From Nymphaea colorata (lineage: Eukaryota; Streptophyta; Magnoliopsida; Nymphaeales; Nymphaeaceae), in NCBI RefSeq assembly GCF_008831285.2, contig NC_045138.2:38555115-38619114 (forward strand): a stretch of DNA of 64,000 nucleotides. The letters are read 5' to 3'. The notes below the pieces were generated by a model. It was not told the origin of the DNA. It worked only from the letters and a program-made list of their open reading frames with translations, and searched no databases. Of the stretch, positions 9,301 to 62,770 are shown one piece after another. Within the stretch, counting starts at the first letter, position 1, and each line of letters starts with the position of its first letter. The position numbers and the translations under genes are program-made.

Positions 9301-12174
9301 TGCATTTAAGCAGATGGACTTGTACTGTCAATTTCAAAATGTTTTCAATTGGTTATTCTATTCATTTTCCTTTTAAGGTTGATGTATGCTTGCTTCTTTA
9401 TCTTAGTTGAAGTTGAAATTGGGTTTGGTATTTCTTTTATTAGGTTCTGCTCTTGTATCATCTTTGGGATGCTCTATATATTCAACAAGATTTTTCGTTT
9501 TAAATTTCCAAATATACCTTATTCTGCAGCTGTAAATCTATACTTACATGCACAATCTTCATTTAGGTGGTGTGTACTGAAGGTCCAGATAGAGTCAAAG
9601 AGCTAATAAATGAGTTTGGTGCATCATTTGACTATGGGGAAGATGGAAACCTACATCTTGCAAGAGAAGGCGGGCATTCTCATCGAAGAATTGTTCATGC
9701 TGCTGATATGACCGGAAGAGAAATTGAACGTGCTTTACTTAAAGCTGTTGATAATGATCCTAGGATATTTATGTTTGAGCACCATTTTGCAATTGATCTG
9801 CTGACCTCTCAGGTTTGTATTTCGAAATTACTTTGATTCTGCTTGATCTGATATGCTATTTATTCTGCTGTAATCTTACAAAGATAGGTCTACTAGCAGT
9901 CTCAAATGCGTTGGTGCATATTTGGTATCTGAAGGTTCTGTTTCCAAAGATCATGAAACTGTGGAAATGGTATCATGTAAAATGTGCCAAAAATTGTTGA
10001 CAAAAACTGAAATCAAACTACCTTCACGTATCTACTCGAGTGGTTGCTTCACTAATTAGTTAGCTGGAGTTGTCAAGCCAATGACTTGTGGATCATAGCC
10101 TTCTGAGTGAGCCGACCTTTGGATGTTTCTTTGATTGAACTTTTGTTCTGACTGCACCATGCTCATACTACATTGTCTTTGACTTTTGCAGAACGCCCAG
10201 GAGATTTCTTGTCATGGGGTTGATACATTGAACACTGAAACACAAGAGGTAAGGGCATGGTGTGAAAGGCACCAGCTATCATTCTGAGTGACTAGAGATG
10301 CTATTTGGATTACATATTCTTTATTTGAGGTTTTCTTCATTAGTCTTGTTTAATTTTCAGATTGTCCGTTTCATCTCAAAAGTAACCATGCTTGCTTCAG
10401 GCGGAGTGGGGCATATTTATCCCTCAACTACGAACCCATTGGTACGTAAACTTTACCTTCTTGGACATGTTTTAAATTACAGTATCTAAGAGGCCATAGT
10501 ATTTCGCTATGAAATCTGAGGAAGTTTAGTTTTTTCAAATGCTATGTTCTTGTTATAAGCATTTCTATCAAGTGAAACAGTTGGAAGGTCTTCAACAAAG
10601 ACTTTAATTTATATGTTTGGTTCAAACGTTTGCTGGAAAGTATTTGTTTTAACATAGATTCCCTACCTGTGATTTTGTTGTAAAATATTGCAAAGGATAG
10701 AGGTTGTGGTTGACTTTATTTTATTTGAGTGGCTTTCAAAGGTTTCTTGGAAAGTGTTTGTCTTGACATAGGTTCCTTACCTGTGATTTTGTTGTAAAGT
10801 ACTGTAAAAGATAGAGGTTCTGATTGTTGTCTTGGTGAGGCCCATTACAGGGGCGCGTCTTTCTTATTCCTTCTTTATCATTAGGCTTCTTTCATATTCT
10901 ATAATCTTATTATGCAATAATTTCTTTATTCATTCACTTCCTTTGCGTCTTACTCTCCACTTATTTCTTTAAAATAACAACCACATGTACATCAATCTTA
11001 TTTTCACAATTTACTACTTCTCAGGTAGCCACTGGGGACGGCATTGCAATGGCACACCGAGCAAATGCAGTCATATCAAACATGGAGTAAGCATTTCAAG
11101 TTCTTAGGAGACTTTAAATGCTTAATAACATAGTGCACGTTTCTCATCCTGCTCTTTATAATCAGATTTGTGCAGTTCCATCCCACAGCCTTGGCTGATG
11201 AAGGATTGCCTGTTAAACAAGAAAGAGAAAATGCATTTCTAATCACAGAAGCTGTTCGTGGAGATGGTGGAATCCTGTATAATCAATCTATGGAAAGATT
11301 CATGCCACTGTATGATGAACGAGCTGAGTTGGCTCCAAGGGATGTAGTAGCTCGATCCATAGACGACCAACTGAAAAAACGTGGAGAAAAGTATGTTTTG
11401 CTTGATATAAGTCACAAGCCAAGGGATCAAATTTTGTCCCACTTTCCTACTATTGCAGCGGAATGCCTCCGGAGTGGGTTGGACATAACTCGTGAACCCA
11501 TACCTGTTGTCCCTGCTGCACATTATATGTGTGGAGGAGTTCAAGCTGGTCTTCATGGTGAAACAGCTGTACGTGGACTTTATGTTGCTGGGGAAGTTGC
11601 ATGCACAGGCTTACATGGGGCCAACCGTCTTGCTAGCAACTCTTTGCTTGAAGCTCTTGTTTTTGCACAAAGGGCAGTGGGTCCTTCTGTTGATCATGTT
11701 TCCAAGTCAACCCATGGTCTTGATCTCAAGGCTTCAAGTAACTGGGTCCGTCCTGAATTGCCCTTTTCTCTTGGGCAAGACACCCTCAAAGCTATCAGAA
11801 GGATAACGGGATCTATGCGGAAGGAATTGCAAACAATTATGTGGGATTATGTGGGAATAGTGAGATCAACTCAAAGGTTAGAGATAGCTGAGGAGAAACT
11901 TTGGGAGTTAGAAAAATCATGGGAAGATTTCATGTTCTGTTCTGGGTGGAAAACTCACATGGTTGGACTTGAAGTATGTGAGATGAGGAACCTTATATGT
12001 TGTGCAAGGTTGGTTGTTAGTAGTGCTTTGTCTCGGCATGAGAGCAGGGGGCTGCATTTCACAGTGGATTTTCCTTATGTTGAAGACAGCAAAAGGCTTC
12101 CAACGATCATATTTCCTGGGACTTCTGTGAAGGTCACATGGAGCTCTCAACAGCTCCATAGGACCTATTCGTGA
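6395..12174 (+). CDS. AO: L-aspartate oxidase, chloroplastic (NadB-type)
   Basis: FAD-dependent oxidase that converts L-aspartate to iminoaspartate, the first step of plastid NAD synthesis before quinolinate synthase. Seven coding exons: 6395-6528, 7260-7605, 9567-9812, 10192-10248, 10361-10441, 11025-11086 and 11166-12174, giving 644 aa with every junction in frame. The first 45 or so residues are a Ser/Lys/Asn-rich stretch consistent with a plastid transit peptide. The dinucleotide fold follows ([13 protein letters not shown]), then [13 protein letters not shown], the [20 protein letters not shown] segment, [18 protein letters not shown] and LDISHKPRD. The active-site/FAD region reads PAAHYMCGG and [19 protein letters not shown]. 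The C-terminal helical domain is present, so the protein is full length for the plant family. Family membership is secure; transit cleavage is inferred. Confidence 0.96.
6974..7025. repeat. 26-bp tandem duplication in aspartate oxidase intron
   Basis: TTATTGACATGTTTTGTTAC followed by TGTACT occurs twice head to tail without a mismatch. Confidence 0.85.
10615..10825. repeat. Diverged tandem duplication (about 110 bp) in aspartate oxidase intron
   Basis: The words GGAAAGTATTTGTTTTAACA, CCTGTGATTTTGTTGTAAA and GATAGAGGTT recur in the same order about 110 bp downstream, with scattered substitutions. The duplication is intronic, between the exons ending at 10441 and starting at 11025. Confidence 0.65.
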
Positions 12175-16972: not shown

Positions 16973-16993
16973 CAGGATGTGTGATGTGGAGGG

Positions 16994-17151
16994 AATGAGC
17001 TGAACAAGCGAATCTCGATTCCCGTTTTGGGTAATCGTTTTTATTTGTTGCAGTATAATTTTCTGGCTTCAGAATGAGCTGAACAAGCGAATGTCGATTC
17101 CCGTTTTGGGTAATCGTTTTTATTTGTTGCAGTATAATTTTCTGGCTTCAG
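16994..17151. repeat. 79-bp tandem duplication in the 3' UTR of the NFD6-like gene
   Basis: AATGAGCTGAACAAGCGAAT begins both units (16994 and 17073). The units differ by about one base (CTCGATT versus GTCGATT). Each copy contains TTTATTTGTTGCAG, which resembles a splice acceptor, so the transcript end has duplicated acceptor-like sites. Confidence 0.85.
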
Positions 17152-20100
17152 AAACAATTATTTTGGGTACTCGCATTCAAAGGCCATTTCTAGAACATTG
17201 ATGTTTGCTTCCTTTCTGTTGAGAAATCTAGGAAAGAATATTCCTGAGTACATCTTTTTGCTTGTCAGCTTTGCCATTCTAGCTCATGGACTCTTAAAAA
17301 ATTCGCCACCCCCAAGTCGGACACGACTCCAGTGCAGCAAACGAGATTTTGCATTTTTTTTTGTTGGGGTGTGTTAAATCTCATATAATATATATGTGTG
17401 TGTGTATTGTGCGTGCGCGTGCGTGTGCTGCATGCACACCAATGTTTCCTTTTTTGGGGAAAACGCCGCATATCTGCCCCAACACTGGCATCTGTGTGAC
17501 CATAGCTCCTGGTAGATGTGAAAATAATCAGGGTTGCTACCAATATGGATGATGAAACTTGTCATAAGAAACTCTCTCCCTCTGCCGGAGGGATGTCTGG
17601 AAGAAAAATTCAAAAAAAGTTAGAAGCGGAAAAAGAAGCATGGGGCTCATAGGTGAACCAAATAGCAACATTATATATATATATATATATATATATATAC
17701 AAGGCTCCATTTCAAAAAGTTAGATAAAAGTTTGGAGGGTAGCAGTTCCTTCTCCCCAACGCAGTCCTAATTTCGAACATCGATCTTCTGGCAGTCACCA
17801 CCAACCACCTTGTCATTTGTTCATACATGTTTTACCATACCTTATTCTCATCCTCTCCGTCTAAATCTTCATGTTTGCTATCCGGTGCTTCTGTCTAGTA
17901 AAAACTTTCTGAGGCCACAAGTCTAGGACGTGGGTGAATGATGACACCTTTAAGAAGGTATTGGGTAGGTGAGATGCACGTTGCGTGTCAAATGAGTAGT
18001 CATAGTTTCATACTTATGGGTCCCTCTCCCTGTGTAAGCTTAAGCTTGGTGCACCCGTTGGTCCATGGAGCACTTGTTGAAATTGTTTTTGGTCCTGCTG
18101 GCAGAAGAGGGGGCCATAGTTGTCGGACAGATTGTCCACCGGCTTCAAACAATTCTATGAGCCACTTCAATACAGCCTGTTAGCTATCACTGCCATTTGC
18201 AGGCATATATGCACTCGATCCTTTATAGGGATGCCCTCCTTATTAAGCAAACAATTTTTTTTCATTTGTATCTTCTTATTTTAATGTAAAGTCCACGAGC
18301 TAATAGATCCTTTTTCGCCTTTGTAAAAAGAATAAGATAGTTGATGAGTAAAACCTCGTAAACTATTCATTTAGAAAAAAAGAACCTTCTTTCTTTGCTG
18401 TAAATTTCTTGCTGAGTGAAAATGATCAAAAGCTCAACGTGGGGGTGAGACTGATGCAGCAAGCTTATGTTGGCAATGAGAACTGAATTGATCTATTACG
18501 GGGGTGTTCAAGCTCTGCTCATTTTCGGACTCGGCGGAACCAAAGTCCCGCCTATGATGTGTTGAAGATGGACTGAGCTCAAGCAAGCTTGTTGTTGGTC
18601 GGGTTGAAGTGGACTTCATTTTAAACACAGAGTTTGTCCTCTCCCTTTCCACTTTTCTAGTACTATGTGATGGATAATATGTAGCATACAACACAGGAAT
18701 TGAAAAATCCTAGTGCAAAAATGTGTTTGGAAAGACAGTCGAAAGTGAGAAGAAGGGCTTCAGTGGCATGTGATTTTCTTGTTAAAGGTATCCTTTTGCA
18801 GATAAAAGTGAGCCGGCTTCCTTGTCATTGTGGCCCTGTATGAATAAAGCATACAAGTATTGCTTGTGGGTGTGGACCAAAATGATGTTAAACTTCTTCC
18901 CTTTGCCAAAGCAAAGAATAAAGAATGTAAAAACTTCTGGCTTGGGCATGTCCAAGGCTTCAGAATATAGTGCTCCGGTACAGATCATGGTATCTTCGTG
19001 GAGATCCCACTTTGATTTTCTTTCTAATTTTCTTCTTTTTAACTATTGCTTTTCTACCCTTTTGCTTGCTTTCTTTTTTTTAAATTGGTGGCTTCTGTTT
19101 TGAGTAGGTCCTCCTGTATCGTATCTGCCGGCTGTTTGAATTAATATTGTATTGTGCCGATTGGTTTAATATATAATTTTTTAATTTAAACGCAAGTGTT
19201 AAGAAGGTCTTAACATAAAACTAATTTTTATGCAAATGACAAATAAAGATTTTAAAACAACTTCTTATTGAACTTTTTTTTTAATTGTAGAAAGGGTTAA
19301 TTTTCTTTTATTTTTAGTGCAAGTATGAAGTCACTTACGAGAAAAAAAAAGAAAATTCTTGTTTATGTTGCCATGTATACCCCCTTCCATGGCCCGAGCC
19401 TTTACTTTAGGATGTCTCCAGGTCCTCATTGTTCAGCACCAATGAACATTCTCACCTTCCTCACTAAGGAATCCACTCCTTTTTATTCGAGCACAGACAT
19501 CAAGGAGCTACTGAAGGATGTTTGTCTAAAAAGGGACCACCAATAAATCTTGCTCATGCAAAAACTCTGGAAAACCATATATTGATCATACTTCCAGATT
19601 GGGTTCATGTTGTTTTCTTCTTCATGATATATATATATATATACGGATTTTGCGTTTTGATATTGGAAATGCTTGGGCATCTCAGTAGTAAAATCTTTAA
19701 CAATACCAATAAACAAGAAAACAATAATTGCTGATGCTTTGTATACGTGGATCTAATGTAATTTTGTAACTAATGTTACGTGGGGCTTGGCCAATTTATA
19801 GTTATCGCTGTCGTCATTTACTTTCGTCCCAATTGCTTGACCCTGCTTTGTGATTGCTACTTCTCTCTACCTTATCGACAGCTGGGGGTCGGTTGCTTCC
19901 TTCGCTCAAGAATTATATGGTCGTCAATGTAGTGATGTTTGGAGTAACACGGCGTCGACAAGAAGAAGAGTGGTCCGCCCCGGCGGCTGTGTCCGTGACC
20001 ATCGGCCCAATTCAGTTTTAAATAAAAAGTTTAATATATATATATATATATATATATTAGGTCGAATCAGCCCGAGATTGTCGAGCCAAAGGCCATTTTC

Positions 20101-26246: not shown

Positions 26247-26378
26247 CTGAACAAGGATTAGATACGCTGATGCCAAGTCGTGCTTAGAGACTGAACAAGG
26301 ATTAGATACGCTGATGCCAAGTCGTGCTTAGAGACTGAACAAGGATTAGATACGCTGATGCCAAGACGTGCTTAGACT
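26247..26378. repeat. 44-bp tandem repeat, three copies
   Basis: The unit begins CTGAACAAGGATTAGATACG and continues CTGATGCCAAGTCGTGCTTA. It occurs at 26247, 26291 and 26335; the third copy has AGACGTG for AGTCGTG and ends early. The near identity implies recent expansion. Confidence 0.9.
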
Positions 26379-26668
26379 GTACACGTCGATTAGCTCCTGT
26401 TTAGACTGGATTAGCCTACAGATTACAGGTCTCTCACATATCGGGTCACCAAGAACGTACAAGCCAGAACATCGGCGAGGTGAAGAAACCGAGCTCAAGA
26501 GTGGCGGCACATCCCATTTATATGTTTCTCAAGGATCACCGCTAGTCTAAGGAACTAACTTAGAATGAGAATCCAAAATGTGTCTTCAAAATCATGGGTC
26601 TGCAAGCTTGCATGGATAAAACCCAGACAAGAAAACAACAATTATAGAAACAAACTGCAACAGCATTG

Positions 26669-33027: not shown

Positions 33028-36000
33028 TCAGAAACGAGATGGAGGAGATTGATCAGCAGACAGACGCATATCTGGAGTGGTGGTGGCTGATGATCCTTGA
33101 TTATGACCACCGCTGCCAACCGCATCTGGCTCCCCTCCACCACCTGTAATGACCCCAATCTCTATATCCCCATTGAGACCACCATTCTCTGTGCGAGCAG
33201 CAGGAGGAAGCACACCATGCAAGCCCAGTACGTTGCTAATTTGCGACGCAGATGTTGCAAGCCCATAACGTGCACTTCCATTGATCACAGTGCTCCCAGA
33301 AGGTCGACCAGAATCAGCACGAATGTTGTTCAATGCACTTAGATCAAGATTGGGGAATACAGAGCAACGACACCGTGGGCATTTCACATTCAGGCGAAGC
33401 CACTGATCAATGCACTCCATATGAAAGTTGTGAGCACAGGGTAGTCCACGAACCTGCATTTTACATCCAAATAATTCAAACAGAACATCTCTTTAAACAG
33501 GAAAAAACAACTCGGTGCACAAATACAAGACTATGGGCACCAGCATTTTATATTTTTCTTCTGAAAGTGAATACATGTTGATCTATGAGCAACCAGTAGC
33601 CAAACCATATTCAATGCAGAACCCAACAGCTTATGCGATTACATGCATCAAGGTTCTCGAATAAAAGGGAGAACCACCATAACTCGTTCGTTTGCTGCTT
33701 TTTTAATTTATTTTGCTCCTGTTCGTAGAAAATCCTGTAGGTCATTAAAATATCCTCTTTCTCGCTTACCTTTTTTTTTTCAGCTTATTTTGTCTTTGTA
33801 AGTTGAAGATCCTGTAAACCATTGCAATAATCTTTCCAACGAAAATGAAAAAAAAAAAGGTGGATATGCCATGGATATCCGTTCAGAGCATTTATAAGAA
33901 GTGTAGAATCAGTAGATAACTATCACAAGTACATTAGATTCTACCTCATTACCAACACGAAACTCTTCAAGGCAGATTGGGCACTCGCTGCAATCTGTGG
34001 GGACAGCCTTCAGCCGGAACTTGGGGAGTTCTTGAATAAGTGCTTCCACAGCTTCTCTCTGTCCAAAATAATTCTTGTTATAATTGGCGCAATCAATGCT
34101 TGTATCAACAATTTATAATCAAAGTTTGTATCAACAATTATTAGTATAGAATCGGCAAAAATGTTCATCAGGAAAAAGGTCTTAGAGCCATTGAACATCA
34201 ATAAACCAACTATTGAAAACCTGTGTTGTGCTCAAATACAATCCAGGATGGTAGGCAGCTGCATCTTGACCCATTCCTCTCAATTCCTGGCCAGCAGCCT
34301 CAAATGCCCACTCGGGAACGCGGATCATATCTACCAACACCTGAGATGAGATGACAGAGAGACAACAGTGAATATGGGGGACTGACTCCAGAGAGCAATA
34401 ACCAGTTTCGGTGTCGAGGTAAATCATTTCAAAGAAAATTATGGAGAGAACAAGAATGTAATGTCTGCAATAAATCCTCGCGAAGAGATATCCTCTAAGA
34501 GCCTTTTTAATCATGTTTTCAAATTTTATTTCTTATTTTTAGTTAATAAGAACTGAACAGCCTAAATCAGCAGAACCAGACAAATTCGCAAACTGTGTTC
34601 AGTTCCTGTGCTGCTATGGTAAAAGCCCAAAACGAAGTGCCTCAGCCAATACAGGCCCATATGCATTGATACTGACAATATTACTTTCAAGTGCACACTA
34701 CCAAGGAATCGGCCTTGAGTTTTACAAAAGCATACAACAAAAAAGAAAATATAAATTCTACATCCAAATTGCATTCAGGTTGCGCTTGCTTCTCAGCTAT
34801 GATATCAAAGCAAACCTATGAAGCTTTACCATTGTTCCTTTTTCTCCTGGAGCTCTTTCAGTTCTGAAGGAAATGAAAGTCTACCACATAATTGTCACAG
34901 AAAACGCGTTTTTTTCGAAAAAAAAAAAACAAAAAAACATGATAAATTAAATGGCCGTTCAAAATTTTAAAAAAAAACGTGTTTTTTTTTTAAAAATGTT
35001 CAAAACGAAGAAAACACGTTTTTTCACATTTTTCACGTTTTTTTCACGTTCTTTTCAAATTTTTTTCACTTTTTTCACTTTTTCAGTTTTTTTAATGCCA
35101 AACAGTTTTTTTTTTCATTTTCTATTTTTTATTTGTTGCAAATCTCCTTATCTTTTGATGTTTGTGTTATTACTTTCTCACTTATTTTATTCTTTCCCCA
35201 TTTTTAGTTTTTTAAAATTTTTAAAAATTTACCGTATTTTTGCTTTTTTTTCAAACTCGCGGTATTATACCCAAGAAAAACCTCACCGTTTAAAACTCCG
35301 AGATGTTATTTGTGACTATTAACTCGTGACGTTTAAACTCAATCATAGTAGAACATTTCATGAATTTATGAGGTGTACAATGTGCAGCACCAAAGTGATC
35401 TTACAACAATATGTATAACACAGTAGAACTTACACCATATTCTGAAATTGGAATCCCCTGTTGGGCACGTTGTAGATGAGCTTGCCTTCGTTTCAGCCAC
35501 TACAAAGAAAACTTATAATTAGAGTGGTAAAAAATGATAGCTTGTACACAGATTTCTCAATGAGCATTTGCAGTTTGAGTAGGGATGTTCAATGAGTGGA
35601 GCCAACTTGGGCTCGACTCGAACTCGCTCGTATAAGCTCCACTCGAGCTCGACTCGTTTACTAAACGAGTCGAGTTCGAGTTTAAATTAAAATCCGAGTA
35701 ATAAAATGAGCCAAGTTCAAGTTTTAAGAGCTCGACTCGTTTAAACTCGACTTGGCTCGCATACGCTTCATTTTCATTTCTCGTGTTCTCTTTTTTTTCA
35801 TTTTTTATTTCTCCTTCCCTCCCGCTCTCTCTCTCACTCTCCTTCTTTTTCTTCTTCCCTCCTTTTCTTGTGCTGCAACTGCACCTCCTCTCTCCCTCTT
35901 GCTTTCTCTCATGGGCTGCAACGGCATGTTGGAGGACAGAAGGAGGCACTTCCCTCTCACTCTCTCTCACATCTGTCTCTTTCTATCTCTCCTCCTCCTT

Positions 36001-39000
36001 CTCTTCTCTCTCTCTTGTTGAGGGTTTCTACAATCCTTGACCAGGTTGAGGGTTCCAGAAACCCATTTCAGCATAGGAACCCTCGACCAGGTCGAGTGCC
36101 CGCCTGCACAGCACAATGCTGTGATATGTAATCTATTCCTCCACTGAGAAACCATGGTTTCTTTTTGGTCTTGTGATGTTTAGGGAGAAGGTGAGCATTC
36201 CTGCGACGAAAGCTTTCATAACGCTGGAAGGGTTAGGTGCGGATGTGACGATGGTGCAATGGGGAGACATAGTTCAAACGCTAGGACCAAATGGGCACCC
36301 CCTTGGGACCTTCAACTCTGCAACTTTTGCTGTCAACTCCGCTTACTTCATGGCCAGAAACATGTATATTACGACTCACAAACACATACATTTTTAGCTT
36401 AGTTGATGATTTTTTTTTTATAACAAGAAGATGATGATTACTCGCTGACGAGCTTAAACGAGTCAAGCTCGAGCTCGCACTCGATTAACCATGTCGAGCT
36501 CGAGCTCGAGCTCGCCTCGTAAAGCTCGAGTCGAGCTCAACTCGAGCAATATGTGAGTTTGAGCTGGTTAAGCTCGGGCTCGACTCCCTCATTGAACATT
36601 CCTAAGTTTGAGGGAACCAAATTTTCAGCATGAACCACTAGGATCACTAAACTATTCTGCTAAACAAAAAGTGACATGGTCAACTTGTGTGAATTTTTTT
36701 AGTGATTTAATAAAACAACAAGAAACAAATTATATTAGAAAAGAAATGGAAGATTAACCAAGAAATGAATCACAAGAAGTCAAGAAAAGGATAGAAAAAG
36801 GGGGGAGGGTGGGGTACTCAACTCCCTCATTGAACATTCCTAAGTTTGAGAAAACCAAATTTTCAGTACGACCCACTAGGATCACTAAACCATTCTGCTG
36901 AACAAAAGGTGACATGATCAACTTGTGTGAATTTGTTAGTGATTTAATAAAACAACAATAAACAAATTATATTAGAAAAGAAATGGAAGGTTAACCAAGA
37001 AATGAATCACAAGAAGTCAAGAAAAGGAAGGAGTGGGGGGAGGACTGGGGAGGCTGGAGTGGGGTGGGGAATAGGGGGAGAGAGAGAGAAAAAAAGATGG
37101 GAACCTGGCTCAGAGGCACCTACACTTTTCATTCTTTTAGTGTTTTGAAACACAAATGAATGTGATCCTCTTACATTTTCGGAATTATTAAAAAGGGATC
37201 TTTTTTTTCTTGTGAAAGATCCAAAATAAAACTGAGTTAAACAAAAGTTTATGTATGTATGTGTGTGGGTGTCTGACACTTGGTACCATACAGCGCCTAT
37301 GTAACATACTACATGGCTGAGACCCAAGTTATGTCATGGAGTTTAGTGAAGTTCACATAAATTTTCAAATGGGCAGTTTAACAACTATGTTATGTTATGA
37401 CATAATTCTATAGAGAAAACCTTGTAGATAACCAAGCGAGAGAAATAGCTATAAACCTGCCCTGTAGACAGGCAAGCAATGCAGATGAGTCCACAATAGC
37501 TGAAAAGCAACCAGATAAGGAAACCCCACTTTTGGCCTTCTTCCGGTAGCTACAAGTATTTCAAATTAGAAATGAATATGAGTCAGAAAAAGAAAATCCA
37601 GAGAAAGGAAAAGAAAAAGAAGGCAAAAAAGGAAGAACTCAGACTTACACAACTTCTCGCCCTAGAGAACCACAAACTACCAATTAGAGTCCACACCCAC
37701 AGAAAAGGGTAAAGAAGTAAGGACAGAATTGACAATACAATGATCCTTCCACAGAACCGTGCATATCTTTGCTGCCAACCTAAATCCCTGAAAATGCATT
37801 AAGTAATGAAAATAAATGGCATATAAACAATCAACTACTTGCAGCTACTTGATCAAAATACTGGTGGAAAGTACAAAACCTCTTGCTAGAAATTATGAAA
37901 AAACTCCAACACAGAAACAATGCACATTTATCTGTGCACTTAATATGAACGCAAACTCAGCATCTACACACACACACACACATATGTGTGTGTGTCTGTT
38001 GCAGTCTCGTCACCTTTTTGCATACAGCAACCATATGGCAGACATTTAACAATCGCCTTTGGAGTAAAAAACAAGTGGAAATTCACTGTACATAATTTAG
38101 ATGGCATGCACATTAGAAAGTGGTCACCTATTAGTCCATACGCCTTGTCAAATCCCCTCAGTATGGAAGCTTGATAGAAACATAAATCAGCTTCCTATTT
38201 CCTATACAATTGGAATACAAACAGAGAGGCAGATTCTTCTCTTAGGAAAAACATAAAAAGGCCATTAATATCCAAACTAGAAGTTAAATATCTCATACAA
38301 CTCATCCAAGTAATTTCTGTGTTTCAGAATTGAGGCGATCAAACCTTGTTCATTTTTTGAAAAATCAGGGGCAATCGTAAAACCTGATATGACCTTAAGG
38401 ATATAACCTTCGGTTAACTTGCAATAAGATCTCAGGAAGAAGATACTTACAAACCCATTCCAGCAGCCAGGCCATTGTCGACGAACATCAATACCCGAAA
38501 AACAAAAACAGCAGTGTAGTCAACCTTGCAGAAGATTGTAAACATAATTCAGCTACACGTAAAGGGTATATTTTAAAGCACAAGAAGTGTAAATGAATAT
38601 CACAGAAGAAAATTTAAAGGTTACCACTATCCAAATGTGCAAGGGGTACATGCACAGATCATACCGCCTCCAGTTTATGGAAACAATGATCCTAGAATTG
38701 GTCAAAGAATATACACACATAAATGTTCAAAGGTGGCAACATAGGCAAAACTACTGTATTTATCACAGAAGACACACGCTATGCACATGATAATGCATGA
38801 AATCAATTAAGTTGTGGCTTGCAGGGCAGCAGATGAAATATGTGAAATATCTGAACTAAGTATTGGAATCCCTCAACCGAATCTTAGTCTGGACTAAACT
38901 GCCATATAATGTGATTCTGAGATCTCAACACCTTGTGTTTGGAGGGAACTCCAAGAGCAGAATCATGGTTGAAAAAACAGAGAATTGCAAAGTGAGAAAA

Positions 39001-41263: not shown

Positions 41264-41339
41264 TTCAGAGCTGTGTTGGTACTAAGTGGTGAGATCTTCG
41301 TGTGCTTCAGAGCTGTGTTGGTACTAAGTGGTGAGATCT
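41264..41339. repeat. 42-bp tandem repeat, two copies
   Basis: TTCAGAGCTGTGTTGGTACT followed by AAGTGGTGAGATCT occurs at 41264 and 41306. It overlaps the left border of the 587-bp duplication. Confidence 0.85.
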
Positions 41340-42464
41340 GAAGGGATCCACACCCTTACAGTATAGGAGCATAGCCGTCCTCTCATTCGGACTGTAGACA
41401 TGACTCCCATGCACCTCAAGTCTGAGTTATGCTCCTCAGAGTTAATGTGAGGAAGGTTTTAAAAACAGTTATAGATCTAAAATTTTCAAGAGTTTGTACG
41501 CTTTTGTGTCATACTGCTGCTTGTTCTGATTCACAGCCTTTTGGTATTGTGATTAAAGCAACTAGAAAGCAAGTTGGATTCCAAGAGATGGGATGCTTGT
41601 GTCAATTTGGGTTCAATTATTATAATTGGTATCAGAGCTTTTTGCACAGACGGACATGTGTGCCTTACAAGTGAAAATGTAAATTGTTCCGATTCTTTTC
41701 ATATCAAACCTTTACTAAATTCAAATAGTTGGATTGTGTACAGCTAGACTCCAACTTTGACTACTTTTTTCTAAAACCAAATTGGAATCCGACCAGCACA
41801 AGTACCAACCTTTACTTGTAGTTGGGTTGGATCATTATATTTTCCCCATCAAATATCAGATTCTATTTCGGATGCAAGAGATCTTCGTGTGCTTCAGAGC
41901 TGTGTTGGTACTAAGTGGTGAGATCTGAAGGGATCCACACCCTTACAGTATAGGAGCATAGCCGTCCTCTCATTCGGACTGTAGACATGACTCCCATGCA
42001 CCTCAAGTCTGAGTTATGCTCCTCAGAGTTAATGTGAGGAAGGTTTTAAAAACAGTTATAGATCTAAAATTTTCAAGAGTTTGTACGCTTTTGTGTCATA
42101 CTGCTGCTTGTTCTGATTCACAGCCTTTTGGTATTGTGATTAAAGCAACTAGAAAGCAAGTTGGATTCCAAGAGATGGGATGCTTGTGTCAATTTGGGTT
42201 CAATTATTATAATTGGTATCAGAGCTTTTTGCACAGACGGACATGTGTGCCTTACAAGTGAAAATGTAAATTGTTCCGATTCTTTTCATATCAAACCTTT
42301 ACTAAATTCAAATAGTTGGATTGTGTACAGCTAGACTCCAACTTTGACTACTTTTTTCTAAAACCAAATTGGAATCCGACCAGCACAAGTACCAACCTTT
42401 ACTTGTAGTTGGGTTGGATCATTATATTTTCCCCATCAAATATCAGATTCTATTTCGGATGCAA
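41291..42464. mobile_element. 587-bp tandem duplication of an LTR-retrotransposon LTR/PBS junction
   Basis: Unit 1 (41291-41877) and unit 2 (41878-42464) appear identical base for base. Each holds TGGTATCAGAGC (41627-41638 and 42214-42225), the primer-binding site complementary to plant initiator tRNA-Met that follows the 5' LTR of many Copia and related elements. Because the site sits at the same internal position in both units, these are not the two LTRs of one element. They are a tandem copy of an LTR end plus leader. No gag or pol frame is present. Confidence 0.8.
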
Positions 42465-43148: not shown

Positions 43149-46100
43149 CTATTCTGCAAGCATCTGCTCATTGTCTGCATCACCTTCTTGTTCAATTTGA
43201 GGCTTCGACGGTGCTTGGCCGGCTCCTGGAGCTTGCTTTTTCTTGATGCCACTGACAATGTCATCAATCCTCAGAAGCATGCAAGCTGCCTCGATGGCAG
43301 TCTTAAACGTCTGTACTTTGACATTATAAGAATCCCATATCTAATCCAAGGAACGGAAACCAAGGACCATTGTCAATTCCAGAAATAATTTGAATATGAA
43401 AAAGCAAGCACAAGTTATAAAATCACGTCCATTACCTTACGCTCGTTCATGTCTGCTATTACACCTGTATTTCCGTCTATGCCAGTCCATGCATTCTCAC
43501 CATTAGCATGCTGCCGCAGAAGAGACAGAAAGCATTTAGGAAACAGAACATGGATGGATAGAACTGGGACTGATCCCACGAATGCAAACAACTAGCCAGT
43601 ACCAGGAGACAGAAAGCATTTAGGAAACAGAACATGGATGGATAGAACTGGGACTGATCTCACGAATGCAAACAACTAGCCAGTACCAGGAGACAGAAAG
43701 CATTTAGGAAACAGAACATGGATGGATAGAACTGGGACTGATCTCACGAATGCAAACAACTAGCCAGTACCACTATTTTTGAACCCAACACCTTCAAGAG
43801 CTTCCTTATCCAGGAAAAAAGAAACGGCTAATATATAACAGTAAGTGGAAAAAATAGTTTCCAAATAAAAATGCCACTCATGGAGTTAACATGATTTCCA
43901 AAATTTCAGAATTTCTCAGTTCTCAGTTCTCAGTTCTTTAACTAAAATTTTGTTATTATTAGTTCATTACTAATATCTACCTTATGAGAACACAGCTGCC
44001 CTTAAACACATGAGAAAACCACAGATAAATAAATCAAGTTAACCAACCATCCATCAGGCTTCATAAACCAAGTTTAATATTTAAAAAATGGATCCATGGC
44101 ATCTTACTTTTCCTTGCAACTCAGTCATTGTTCGAATCACATTTACTCCACAGTTCTGCGCAAGGGTACGTGGAATTGCCTCAAAAGCAACTGCAGCAGC
44201 TTCATACGGCCACTGTAATATAGTAACATGGACAGCCAAATGAGTGAACTCATCAAATTCTTCTATAGGCAAACCCAAGGACAAAAAATTTAAAAAAAAT
44301 CCTACTTTTTCAATCCCTTCTATCGATGAACTCTTCTGCTTTAGTGTAGCAGAAACAGTCAACTCAGATGCACCACCACCAGGAACAAGCTTTGGATTCT
44401 TGATAATGTTCCTTGCAACAGACATTGCATCCTGCAAAAGTTGTATTCATAGTTGAGACGATGAGAAAACATGTGAAAAATGTATTGATAAATTAACTTC
44501 TATTAAAATGATTGTGAGCCACAAAAGGTGTGGCGCTCAACTACAGCTGATGGGACTAAAATAACTATAAAAACAGTATTCTAGAGCTTCCTTTAGGTGG
44601 ACTTTAATTCACAAATAAAACTCGGGGATCTAAACCTGAGGACTGGATAAAAAAGGCAAATGAAAGATTAGCAAAGGACCAAAGAATTAGATTGTGAACG
44701 GACTAATAAGCATGCCTTGTGGTCACATAGGTCATGGTTGTCACGTGCAGCTTTGCAGAAGGGGCCTTACTTGATGCTCAAAAGCTTTCAATATTTGCTT
44801 TCTCTCAAAACTATGTCTAGAACTGGATAAAACCCAAATTACACAGGAGGGAGGTAATGGATACAAAAGAGAACATATGGGATATGTGGAGCAAATTTTA
44901 GAAGAGCTCGGGACATTCAATAAGCAATGATGTGGGCACAAACCACCTAAACCAATAACCCCATTCCTCTCCCCCTAACACCCCTCACCCCACCCCCCAC
45001 AAAAAAAAAAAAAGGAAAACAAACAAGAAGAAACGCAGAGAAAACTCAAAAACAGCAATCATTTACCTGCAAATTTCTCTCAACTTCATTCAGGAAGTCC
45101 TTGCTTGGCCCTCTTAAGAGAACTGTACATGCCTTCGGGTCTTTGCATTCCACAATGAAAGAAAAGAACTCATCGCCAATCTTCTTAACCTCAAATAGCC
45201 CAGCCCCTGTTCCAACATCAGATTCTTGTAGCTCATCTGGCCTGTTGACTATGACAGCGCCAGTAGCCTTTGCAATCCTGTTATTATCAGTCTTCCTTAA
45301 TCTTCTGATTGCACTTACTCCAGCCTTACTGAGAAAGTGGCAGGCAAGATCACTTAGTCCTTTTTCTGTGATCACCAGATCAGGTTTGAACTTCAATATC
45401 TGAGAGCATAGATCCTGAATGTATTCTTCTTCCATTCTCAACAAAGTTGCCCTGTCAGATAGCGTATCAGTCCATATACTAAATGGTCGACGGAATTGTC
45501 TTGCATAAACTGACAATGAGACGAAAAAGTGGTCCCTAACTATATGAATGGTATACCAGGTTGTCACATTCATCCATAAGAAAAAAAAAATCTTTCTCCT
45601 TTTCTCTGTTTGTTTGGACATGTAGAAGACCAGGCAGATAATAAAAAGAAACAGAACAAGTTTAATTCAACATGCTATATATATAAAGAAAATAAGCATA
45701 AAAATACATAACTCAATGGCAGTTAGAGCATCTTACCAATCTTCCTCGTTCGCTAATTCAGCATTTGTTTGGTTCTCTCCTTTCTTGTATTCTAGAGGAC
45801 AATCTAAAAGAATAATGCGAGGGTTTACTATTCTCCTCTTCATTTTCCCAGGAGCAACAACATCTTTGTTTATCATTACTCCTCTTAAAACTGTGGAATC
45901 TTCCAACTGACCACCAGGAACCTTCTCAACTTTAATATATTTTTTAATGTCAACTTCTCGTAGCCCTTGCCCAAGGTCCACACCAACAATAGTCGCAGCA
46001 TCAAGTGCCATATCCTGAACGTGAGAGAATGAAGAAAAGGGAGATCAGGTTCAATACAAAACATAAAGGATGCAACACTAAAACCATCAGATGGTGGAGA

Positions 46101-57429: not shown

Positions 57430-57895
57430 AGGCGCATAGAATACCAATTAAAATGTGGTAAAAAAAAAAATCAATACCAACTATAACTTTTTATATATTT
57501 ACTGAAAATGGATATACGAAATATATTTTATATTTATCTATTTTGTTATCCTTTTCACTTTTTTTTTTCTTGTGGAATATAATCTTGTAATCTTCTTCGA
57601 TACTCATAGATGGTTTGCATTTTCCAGACATTTGATCAATCATCCACTTAGTGAAGCGCCGGGCCACATAGAATATCAATTAAAATGTGGTTAAAAAATT
57701 TCAAAATCAACTATAACTTTTTATATATTTACTAAAAATGGATATACGAAATATTTCTTTATATTTATCTATTTTTATCATTTTCACTTTTTTTTTCTTT
57801 TGGACATCACATATTGTCATATAATCTTGTACTTGTCTTCGATACTCATAGATGGTTTCCATTCTCCAGACATTTGGGATAGCTGGGGCCTGCAC
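57430..57895. repeat. Diverged tandem duplication of about 230 bp
   Basis: Copy 1 (about 57435-57655) and copy 2 (about 57666-57890) share CAATTAAAATGTGGT, CAACTATAACTTTTTATATA, AATGGATATACGAAATAT and CGATACTCATAGATGGTTT in the same order. Both copies end near CCAGACATTTG. Confidence 0.75.
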
Positions 57896-60710: not shown

Positions 60711-62656
60711 TCAACCAGCTCTCACCCAAATCATATCGTTCTCAAAGATCCAATGGCACACCTCAATTTCCCCTGGCTTTGAGCCCAATGCAACGAAGGC
60801 TCCATTGCCAGGCCCCCATGCACTGGTGTCCAGGTGACAGATTGCCACTCCATGGTTGATCTTCTTCTTGCTCTTGACGTCCAGGATGTCAGCCTCGTAG
60901 ACCCTCACAATGGGCACTGAGTGACAGTAATAGACTAAGTAAGGGAACATGCTCTGGTGGCAAGAAACAGACCTGGTAATCCTCCCACCATCTAGCCCCT
61001 TCACCTCCCCAATCTCCACATTCTTCCCCCACCCCATTGTTGACTCAGTGGACCTCAATTGCACGTCCCTTCCGAGCATAGACGTCGCAAAATCGATCAT
61101 GTCCTCGATCGAAGTCACGCACCTCTTTGTCTCCCCCTTGCTGGGCTCCCTCTCGCACTCTGCCAGGGTATTCTTCATCAGCCGTTCCATGCTGGAATTC
61201 TCTCTGGCGTGGAACACCTTCTTCAGCTCCCCGAGTTTCGAGCTCGAGAAGGGCAGCCTCTCGGCGATCGACCGCGGCAGGAATGATCTCGGCGGCATCC
61301 GGTCCCGGAGGTCCGGCATTGGCATCACGGTCCCGGCTTTCATCATCTTCTCCCTGAAGAATTTCCCTGGCTCAACAGCCCACTTGGTGCTGGAAAGATT
61401 AGAGGCGGTGCTTGGAGAGGTGTAGGCAGAGAAGGTGACGCTCTTCTTGTCACCGTAGTTCCCAAACGTGTTGTTGATCCCATAAGTTTTGAAACCAACT
61501 TGGGGCTTAAAAGCACCTTCACCATAGCTCTTGAACTTGTCAGTGCCCACATTGGCCGATTGACCATAGTTGATGAAATTCAGCTTGGGGGAGATGCCGA
61601 GCTTGCCATAGGAAGTGAAGGAGTCATCACCAACATTGGCGGAGTCCCTGTAATTAGTAAACGTATCAATGCCGTCGTTGCCGCCGGTGCCGTAGGTTCT
61701 GAAGTTGTCCTCTGGCCCGTTTCCGTTCAGCCCGTAGTTGGTGAAGGAATCATTGGCACGAACGCCATCCTCACCGTAGTTGCTGAACGTCGAGCCGATG
61801 ACATTGCCGCCCTCGCCGTAGTTGACGAACCCAGATGGGACGCCCTTGCCTTTCCTGCCGTAACTGACGAAGGATTGGTCTCCGGCGTTCCCCTGGAAGG
61901 AGTAGGCCCGGAAGTCCCGATTCCGGCCGGCCGCGTCCGTCTCGTACGTGGAGAACCTGAGGCCCGGAACGTTGATGTTGTCCGCGTAGCTGCTGAACTG
62001 GCCAGAGCCGCCGGAGGCAGCGACGCCGTAGCTCAAGAACTCGCTGTCGCCGACGTTCACGTCCGGCACATAGGACGAAAACGAATCATCGTGGCGGGAC
62101 GAGTCGCGGCTGTACCGCGTGAAGGAATTGGCGGCGACGTTCGCGTTCTCGGAATACTTCTTGAACGAGTCGATTCCGCCAGTGGAGCCGGACCGGTAGT
62201 TTGAGAAGTTACGGCCAGAGTAGGAGGTGAAATCGACATTAGACTCGTGCTTCTCAAGGCTGGGGGAGGGGTCCGGGAAGCAGAAAAGGTGCGCGGCGTC
62301 GCACAATGTGGGGAGATGCAAGGCGAGCGAGCTCTGCTCGGCGTAGCGCCGGAGAACAGACGAGTGGAGGGCGTCGAGAGGGGAGGCCTTCTCCATCAGA
62401 AACGCCGGTTTCGGCGTGTTGGGTATGTGCACGTTCCAGTAACGGAGAACGGAGGCCTTCGCAGAGAGAGGGTTCAGGCCCGGAACCCCGCCGCTTCCCG
62501 AGGCGATTGCCTGCAAGACCAAGAAAAGGATGAGAGAAATCTTTGTGAGAGAAGCAATTCTGAAGACTACCCAATTCAGGAAACGGGGAAAATTCGAGAA
62601 CCCACCATGAGAAATTGCAGAAGGAGAAGCAGAAGCCAAATGCTGAGGGCCGCCAT
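60711..62656 (-). CDS. Polygalacturonase 1 beta-like protein (BURP domain, FxxY repeats)
   Basis: Secreted cell-wall protein of the PG1-beta (AroGP) branch of the BURP family. Exon 1 is 62656-62606 and exon 2 is 62510-60711, giving 616 aa. I chose the ATG at 62656 because it yields a signal peptide (MAALSIWLLLLLLQFLM) that joins in frame across a 95-bp GT-AG intron to AIASGSGGVPGLNPLSAKA. An uninterrupted frame from 62726 instead gives an Arg/Glu-rich N terminus made from a GA repeat and is wrong. Residues about 108-380 carry 21 FxxY units (FTSY, FSNY, FKKY and so on). The BURP domain (from about residue 397, FFREKMMKAGTVMPMPDLRD) has all four Cys-His pairs: SCHQS, YYCHS, AICHLD and EVCHWIF. 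In tomato, the founding member binds polygalacturonase. Exon 2 is strikingly GC-rich. Confidence 0.93.
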
Positions 62657-62770
62657 TGATGGAGCTCCCTTTCTCTCTCCTCTCTCTCTCTCTCTCTCTC
62701 TGTAGCTTCCTTTCTCTCTCTTTCACGAGAAGGCGAGTGTGTGGAGAGGGAGGTGGAGGGAACTAAATAG
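62657..62770 (-). promoter_or_regulatory. GA-rich leader of the BURP gene
   Basis: Directly upstream of the start codon, the coding strand carries a long GAGAGA run (62675-62725). A weak TATA-like CTATTTAG lies at 62763-62770. GA-rich leaders are common in plant genes. This purine run is also what creates a false N-terminal extension. Confidence 0.4.

Follow-up and report, generated by a model that had tools for sequence, protein, structure and literature searches.

The window analysed here, a stretch of 64,000 nucleotides from Nymphaea colorata that is nuclear DNA of a plant judging from its gene content, carries a SIS3-like RING gene on its minus strand, the exons of which were mapped by tblastn with the Arabidopsis SIS3 protein as the query. 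The matches lie at 39861-39826, 39730-39695, 38705-38562 and 38536-38450, then at 37786-37457, where a single match crosses a short intron with stops, and finally at 35499-35431, 34340-34221, 34100-33936 and 33486-33322; all other matches to SIS3 in the window were weaker (E 0.025 or worse). When three pieces of the gene were compared with Pfam, the piece at 33028-33492 matched RING profiles and the other two matched no Pfam family. Between the minus-strand exon that ends at 37457 and the next one, which begins at 35499, lies an intron of 1,957 bp (35500-37456), with the borders CAG/GTTTAT and TTTGTAG/TGG on the minus strand (the slash marking the exon-intron junction). In the SIS3 protein used as the query, the two flanking exons follow directly on each other, at residues 147 and 148, and the reading frame is kept across them. 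Elsewhere, the window contains a large open frame with a BURP domain on the minus strand (60711-62762; Pfam PF03181, E 3.5e-69) and an open frame at 11134-12174 with FAD-binding and fumarate-reductase C-terminal Pfam matches, probably an L-aspartate oxidase.

The SIS3-like intron holds a mobile element of 1,025 bp (35580-36604) together with a tandem duplication that involves the right end of this element. The initial annotation had described a complete hAT element with near-perfect terminal inverted repeats (TIRs) and exact flanking duplications inside this intron, and in these points the anatomy agrees with it. The 17-bp TIRs, TAGGGATGTTCAATGAG on the plus strand at 35580-35596 and TAGGAATGTTCAATGAG on the minus strand at 36588-36604, differ by one mismatch, and the exact 8-bp target-site duplication (TSD) AGTTTGAG lies directly outside them at 35572-35579 and 36605-36612. 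The TIRs are the outermost part of a longer, imperfect inverted repeat, in which the left arm (35580-35680, plus strand) pairs with the right arm (36499-36604, minus strand) with 70.9% identity over 110 alignment columns, and the motifs GAGCTCG and ACTCG are present in both ends. The element is structurally complete, though non-autonomous, and the earlier picture was itself incomplete, since the duplication of the right terminus had been overlooked.

A chance origin of this combination of TIRs and TSDs was ruled out by scanning the window for exact 8-bp direct repeats directly outside 17-bp inverted repeats, with a span of 200-6000 bp, and by comparing the outcome with 60 shuffles of the window. 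With at most two mismatches, and with (TA)n runs excluded, the scan returned only the element at 35580-36604 and the combination of its left end with a second right end (35572-36850), besides many matches within (TA)n microsatellites near 17.7, 20.0 and 21.2 kb. Dinucleotide-preserving shuffles, which lose the microsatellites too, gave no such structure with at most two mismatches (0/60) and two with three mismatches (2/60). No sister copy of the element was found within the 64-kb window.

The exact 8-bp TSD at 35572 and 36605 and the short TIRs of hAT type, 17 bp with one mismatch, place the element in the hAT superfamily, the hATs of grapevine having TIRs of 8-23 bp (PMC2528002). A hAT transposase is expected of autonomous members only, non-autonomous ones being exempt, and none of the seven open frames of at least 70 codons overlapping the element has a transposase-like Pfam match: six have no Pfam match at E <=0.1, and the seventh is the pectinesterase frame treated below. 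In its left end the first eight bases are the same as those of the Ac/Ds end C/TAGGGATGAAA, as quoted in the maize Ds paper (PMC3260210). Membership in Ac/Ds proper is excluded by the TIR, since the 11-bp left end departs from that of Ac/Ds in its last three bases (positions 9, 10 and 11) and the right end has mismatches at positions 5, 9, 10 and 11. The Pack-hAT kind is marked by host-gene coding DNA between the TIRs, and such DNA is found here in the form of a match to Pfam PF01095 that lies close to the cut-off. With a probability of roughly 85%, we regard 35580-36604 as a Pack-hAT, old and non-autonomous, into which an exon was copied and one end of which was duplicated later.

The coding DNA in question is a stop-free, pectinesterase-like exon fragment of 180 bp on the plus strand (36184-36363), preceded by AG at 36182-36183 and followed by GT at 36364-36365. 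The exon is symmetric, since both borders are in phase 2, and 36185-36364 can be read in the pectinesterase frame as 60 residues with no stop, the last codon being split by the predicted donor. The bare 60-residue exon falls below the PF01095 cut-off of 27 bits (22.9 bits, E 4.3e-5; profile positions 41-94 of 298), and the 90-residue open frame that contains it (36125-36394) passes just over it (27.5 bits, E 1.7e-6). A search of the PDB with the exon gave weak matches only, to two pectinesterases, with E values of 0.0087 and 0.32, and to a protein of another kind at E 0.87. The initial claim of a 180-bp pectinesterase exon with its own acceptor and donor holds for a pectinesterase-like stretch, with an open frame, AG and GT borders and a profile score that is below the cut-off for the exon and just above it for the longer frame; judging from those borders, the exon may also be spliceable. 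Its position antisense to the minus-strand SIS3-like gene was likewise read correctly.

Openness of the exon was rejected as a sign of constraint, given that a neutral copy often remained free of stops in a simulation restricted to substitutions, with no indels (84% of runs at a distance of 0.04 and 70% at 0.08). Since neutral copies mostly stay open at the distance of about 0.04 per copy accumulated since the duplication described below, a function cannot be argued from the open frame of the exon. In pectinesterases the catalytic residues are located downstream of the region that the exon covers, and the piece would thus not be an enzyme. Outside the plants, 148 pattern matches to the exon in prokaryote genomes yielded two loci upheld by tblastn, both aligning to residues 1-60 with 40% identity (or 41 and 48% when all three sequences were aligned together), and these bacterial loci were rejected as donors of the exon; none of the 10 pattern matches in viral contigs was upheld.

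We infer that the exon was captured from a pectinesterase gene, as it lies wholly between the TIRs, with the TSDs directly outside. No other pectinesterase-like stretch was found in the window (best other match E 0.60), which, like the position of the exon, speaks against the pectinesterase stretch having entered an element that already resided in the intron, or the element having been built around a pectinesterase pseudogene. Such an order of events can still draw on the fact that a single copy does not set the order, and that about half of the element interior (35770-36183) has no known source, and we hold it to be quite unlikely. Under the preferred reading, capture before insertion, the exon would have entered the interior of the element together with bits of its two introns, copied there either through a template switch in the course of gap repair or because neighbouring elements were mobilised jointly. 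Joint mobilisation of two adjacent elements has been put forward as a capture route in two papers (PMC8903248; PMC13317346), and a third, on animals, proposes gap filling, or fork stalling combined with a template switch (PMC8277862); one copy cannot discriminate between joint mobilisation, gap filling and fork stalling. A transposase acting in trans would then have moved the packed element, which may have come to lie 72 bp from the 3′ splice site of the SIS3 intron.

The right TIR and its TSD are present twice, at 36588-36612 and at 36826-36850, within two tandem copies separated by a two-base filler at the junction. In the first copy (36579-36814, 236 bp), the last 26 bp of the element are followed by the TSD and by 202 bp of adjoining intron, and the second (36817-37050, 234 bp) includes an extra TIR at 36826-36842 and a third TSD at 36843-36850. 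Since both copies contain the end of the element, the insertion predates the duplication. Of 233 sites compared between the two copies, 17 carry a substitution (12 transitions and 5 transversions), and the alignment has 4 gap columns; the K2P distance is 0.077 with an approximate standard error of 0.018, and therefore about 0.04 per copy since the duplication. With substitution rates of 5e-9 to 1.3e-8 per site and year, the duplication would date back some 3 to 8 million years, or about 19 million with a rate of 2e-9, and the insertion, being older, is probably millions of years old. The duplicated end thereby provides a built-in relative clock, according to which the packed element has been in the SIS3-like intron since before the duplication.

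That the extra right end was produced by the assembly is hardly credible: tandem repeats are common in the window, one of them being 100% identical over 587 bp, but the differences between the two copies are too many for duplicated reads. As for a mechanism, a G-rich tract (37035-37078) lies at the end of the second copy, and slippage or template switching between this tract in the flank and the right end of the element could have duplicated the end, the TSD and the flank. The tract is quadruplex-like with loops of up to 12 bases, as one of seven such runs on both strands of the window, and is not among the four runs found with loops of up to 7; since it is quadruplex-like only with the longer loops, slippage or template switching at the tract is weakly backed.

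Tandem duplications were also observed at other places. The stretches 41291-41877 and 41878-42464 form a perfect 587-bp tandem duplication, 100% identical and thus either very recent or an assembly artefact, and 43522-43772 consists of three copies of an 84-bp unit that are 98.8-99.4% alike. Five further stretches contain local tandem duplications, roughly 60-400 bp long and 70-98.8% identical (819-1623, 10600-10826, 16993-17153, 26247-26393 and 57435-57876), and local duplication is therefore common in the window.

The left end and the outer right end together delimit a stretch of 1,263 bp (35580-36842) with the same 8-bp TSD outside, and some 230 bp of the SIS3 intron lie within it. The duplicated right end might on that account be a frozen intermediate of a second capture, an idea that we consider unlikely. 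If it were true, a hAT element could take up its flank through a terminus copy made by slippage and would need no second transposon to insert nearby, which sets this route apart from the one proposed for Pack-TYPE elements. Should a transposase be able to use the duplicated end, this would be a simple and testable route to the uptake of flanking DNA that needs no second insertion.

In regards to its present role, the element most likely has no gene function and is a passenger that leaves with the spliced SIS3 intron. The two arms, folded as separate RNA strands in the SIS3 sense, gave a duplex of -111.1 kcal/mol, and 300 shuffles gave a mean of -49.2 kcal/mol (sd 5.1, lowest -64.1). Since the arms are inverted repeats their pairing is expected, and no more than the possibility of a stem follows from it; in the SIS3 pre-mRNA the ends could pair into such a stem, and this might be a source of small RNAs. 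From the sequence, one could propose that the element is a regulator, with the antisense pectinesterase exon in the loop of the stem giving rise to small or antisense RNAs that would act on pectinesterase transcripts or on SIS3; the initial annotation had already raised antisense RNA and pairing with the pectinesterase mRNA as possibilities. The antisense orientation of the exon and the fact that the ends can pair in the strand with SIS3 sense are compatible with this proposal, and an antisense capture has been suggested as potentially regulatory for a CACTA element of grapevine (PMC2528002). Such a role is very unlikely, given that no Rfam match was found in 35000-37500 and that any element with inverted repeats of this sort would have ends able to pair. 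The passenger reading is the one that we retain.

Gene-fragment capture by hAT elements, to which the initial annotation had alluded as known, is indeed documented in three papers: maize Ds2-22, Ds-l4-354 and others contain gene fragments, which is called a rare feature of hATs (PMC3260210), Hatvine-6 of grapevine is a hAT with gene pieces (PMC2528002), and among the Pack-hATs of maize one extends an exon of its host gene and gives a new splice donor (PMC8903248). Since hATs with gene fragments have already been published in maize and grapevine, the Nymphaea element is a further member of a described kind, and it adds a probable exon capture to a superfamily where, as stated in the maize Ds paper (PMC3260210), this is rare. 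The literature matches listed for pectinesterase, hAT and capture mention pectinesterase once, SIS3 is absent among the matches listed for SIS3, intron and transposon, and five TIR-like strings had no match in the literature searched.

The element shares with the Pack-hATs (PMC8903248) a non-autonomous hAT structure, TIRs, an 8-bp TSD and coding DNA inside, and differs from them in that the exon piece is antisense to its host gene and intronic, and in that one end is duplicated together with the flank. Hatvine-6 (PMC2528002) resembles it in having hAT ends and a variable interior that often looks like genic introns and exons; in contrast, Hatvine-6 elements have a common transposase coding sequence, and here there is no transposase match. 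The Ds-l4 elements of maize (PMC3260210) are alike in their size of about 1 kb, their 8-bp TSD and ends that start with C/TAGGGATG, and a few of them contain pieces of host genes, from exons as well as introns. One of them, Ds-l4-483, likewise has a second copy, which is truncated and brings an extra TIR and a further copy of the TSD; whereas its second copy lies around unrelated trapped DNA, the extra end in Nymphaea arrived together with a second, tandem copy of the flanking DNA. The new detail with respect to the known elements is that one end was later copied along with the adjoining DNA.
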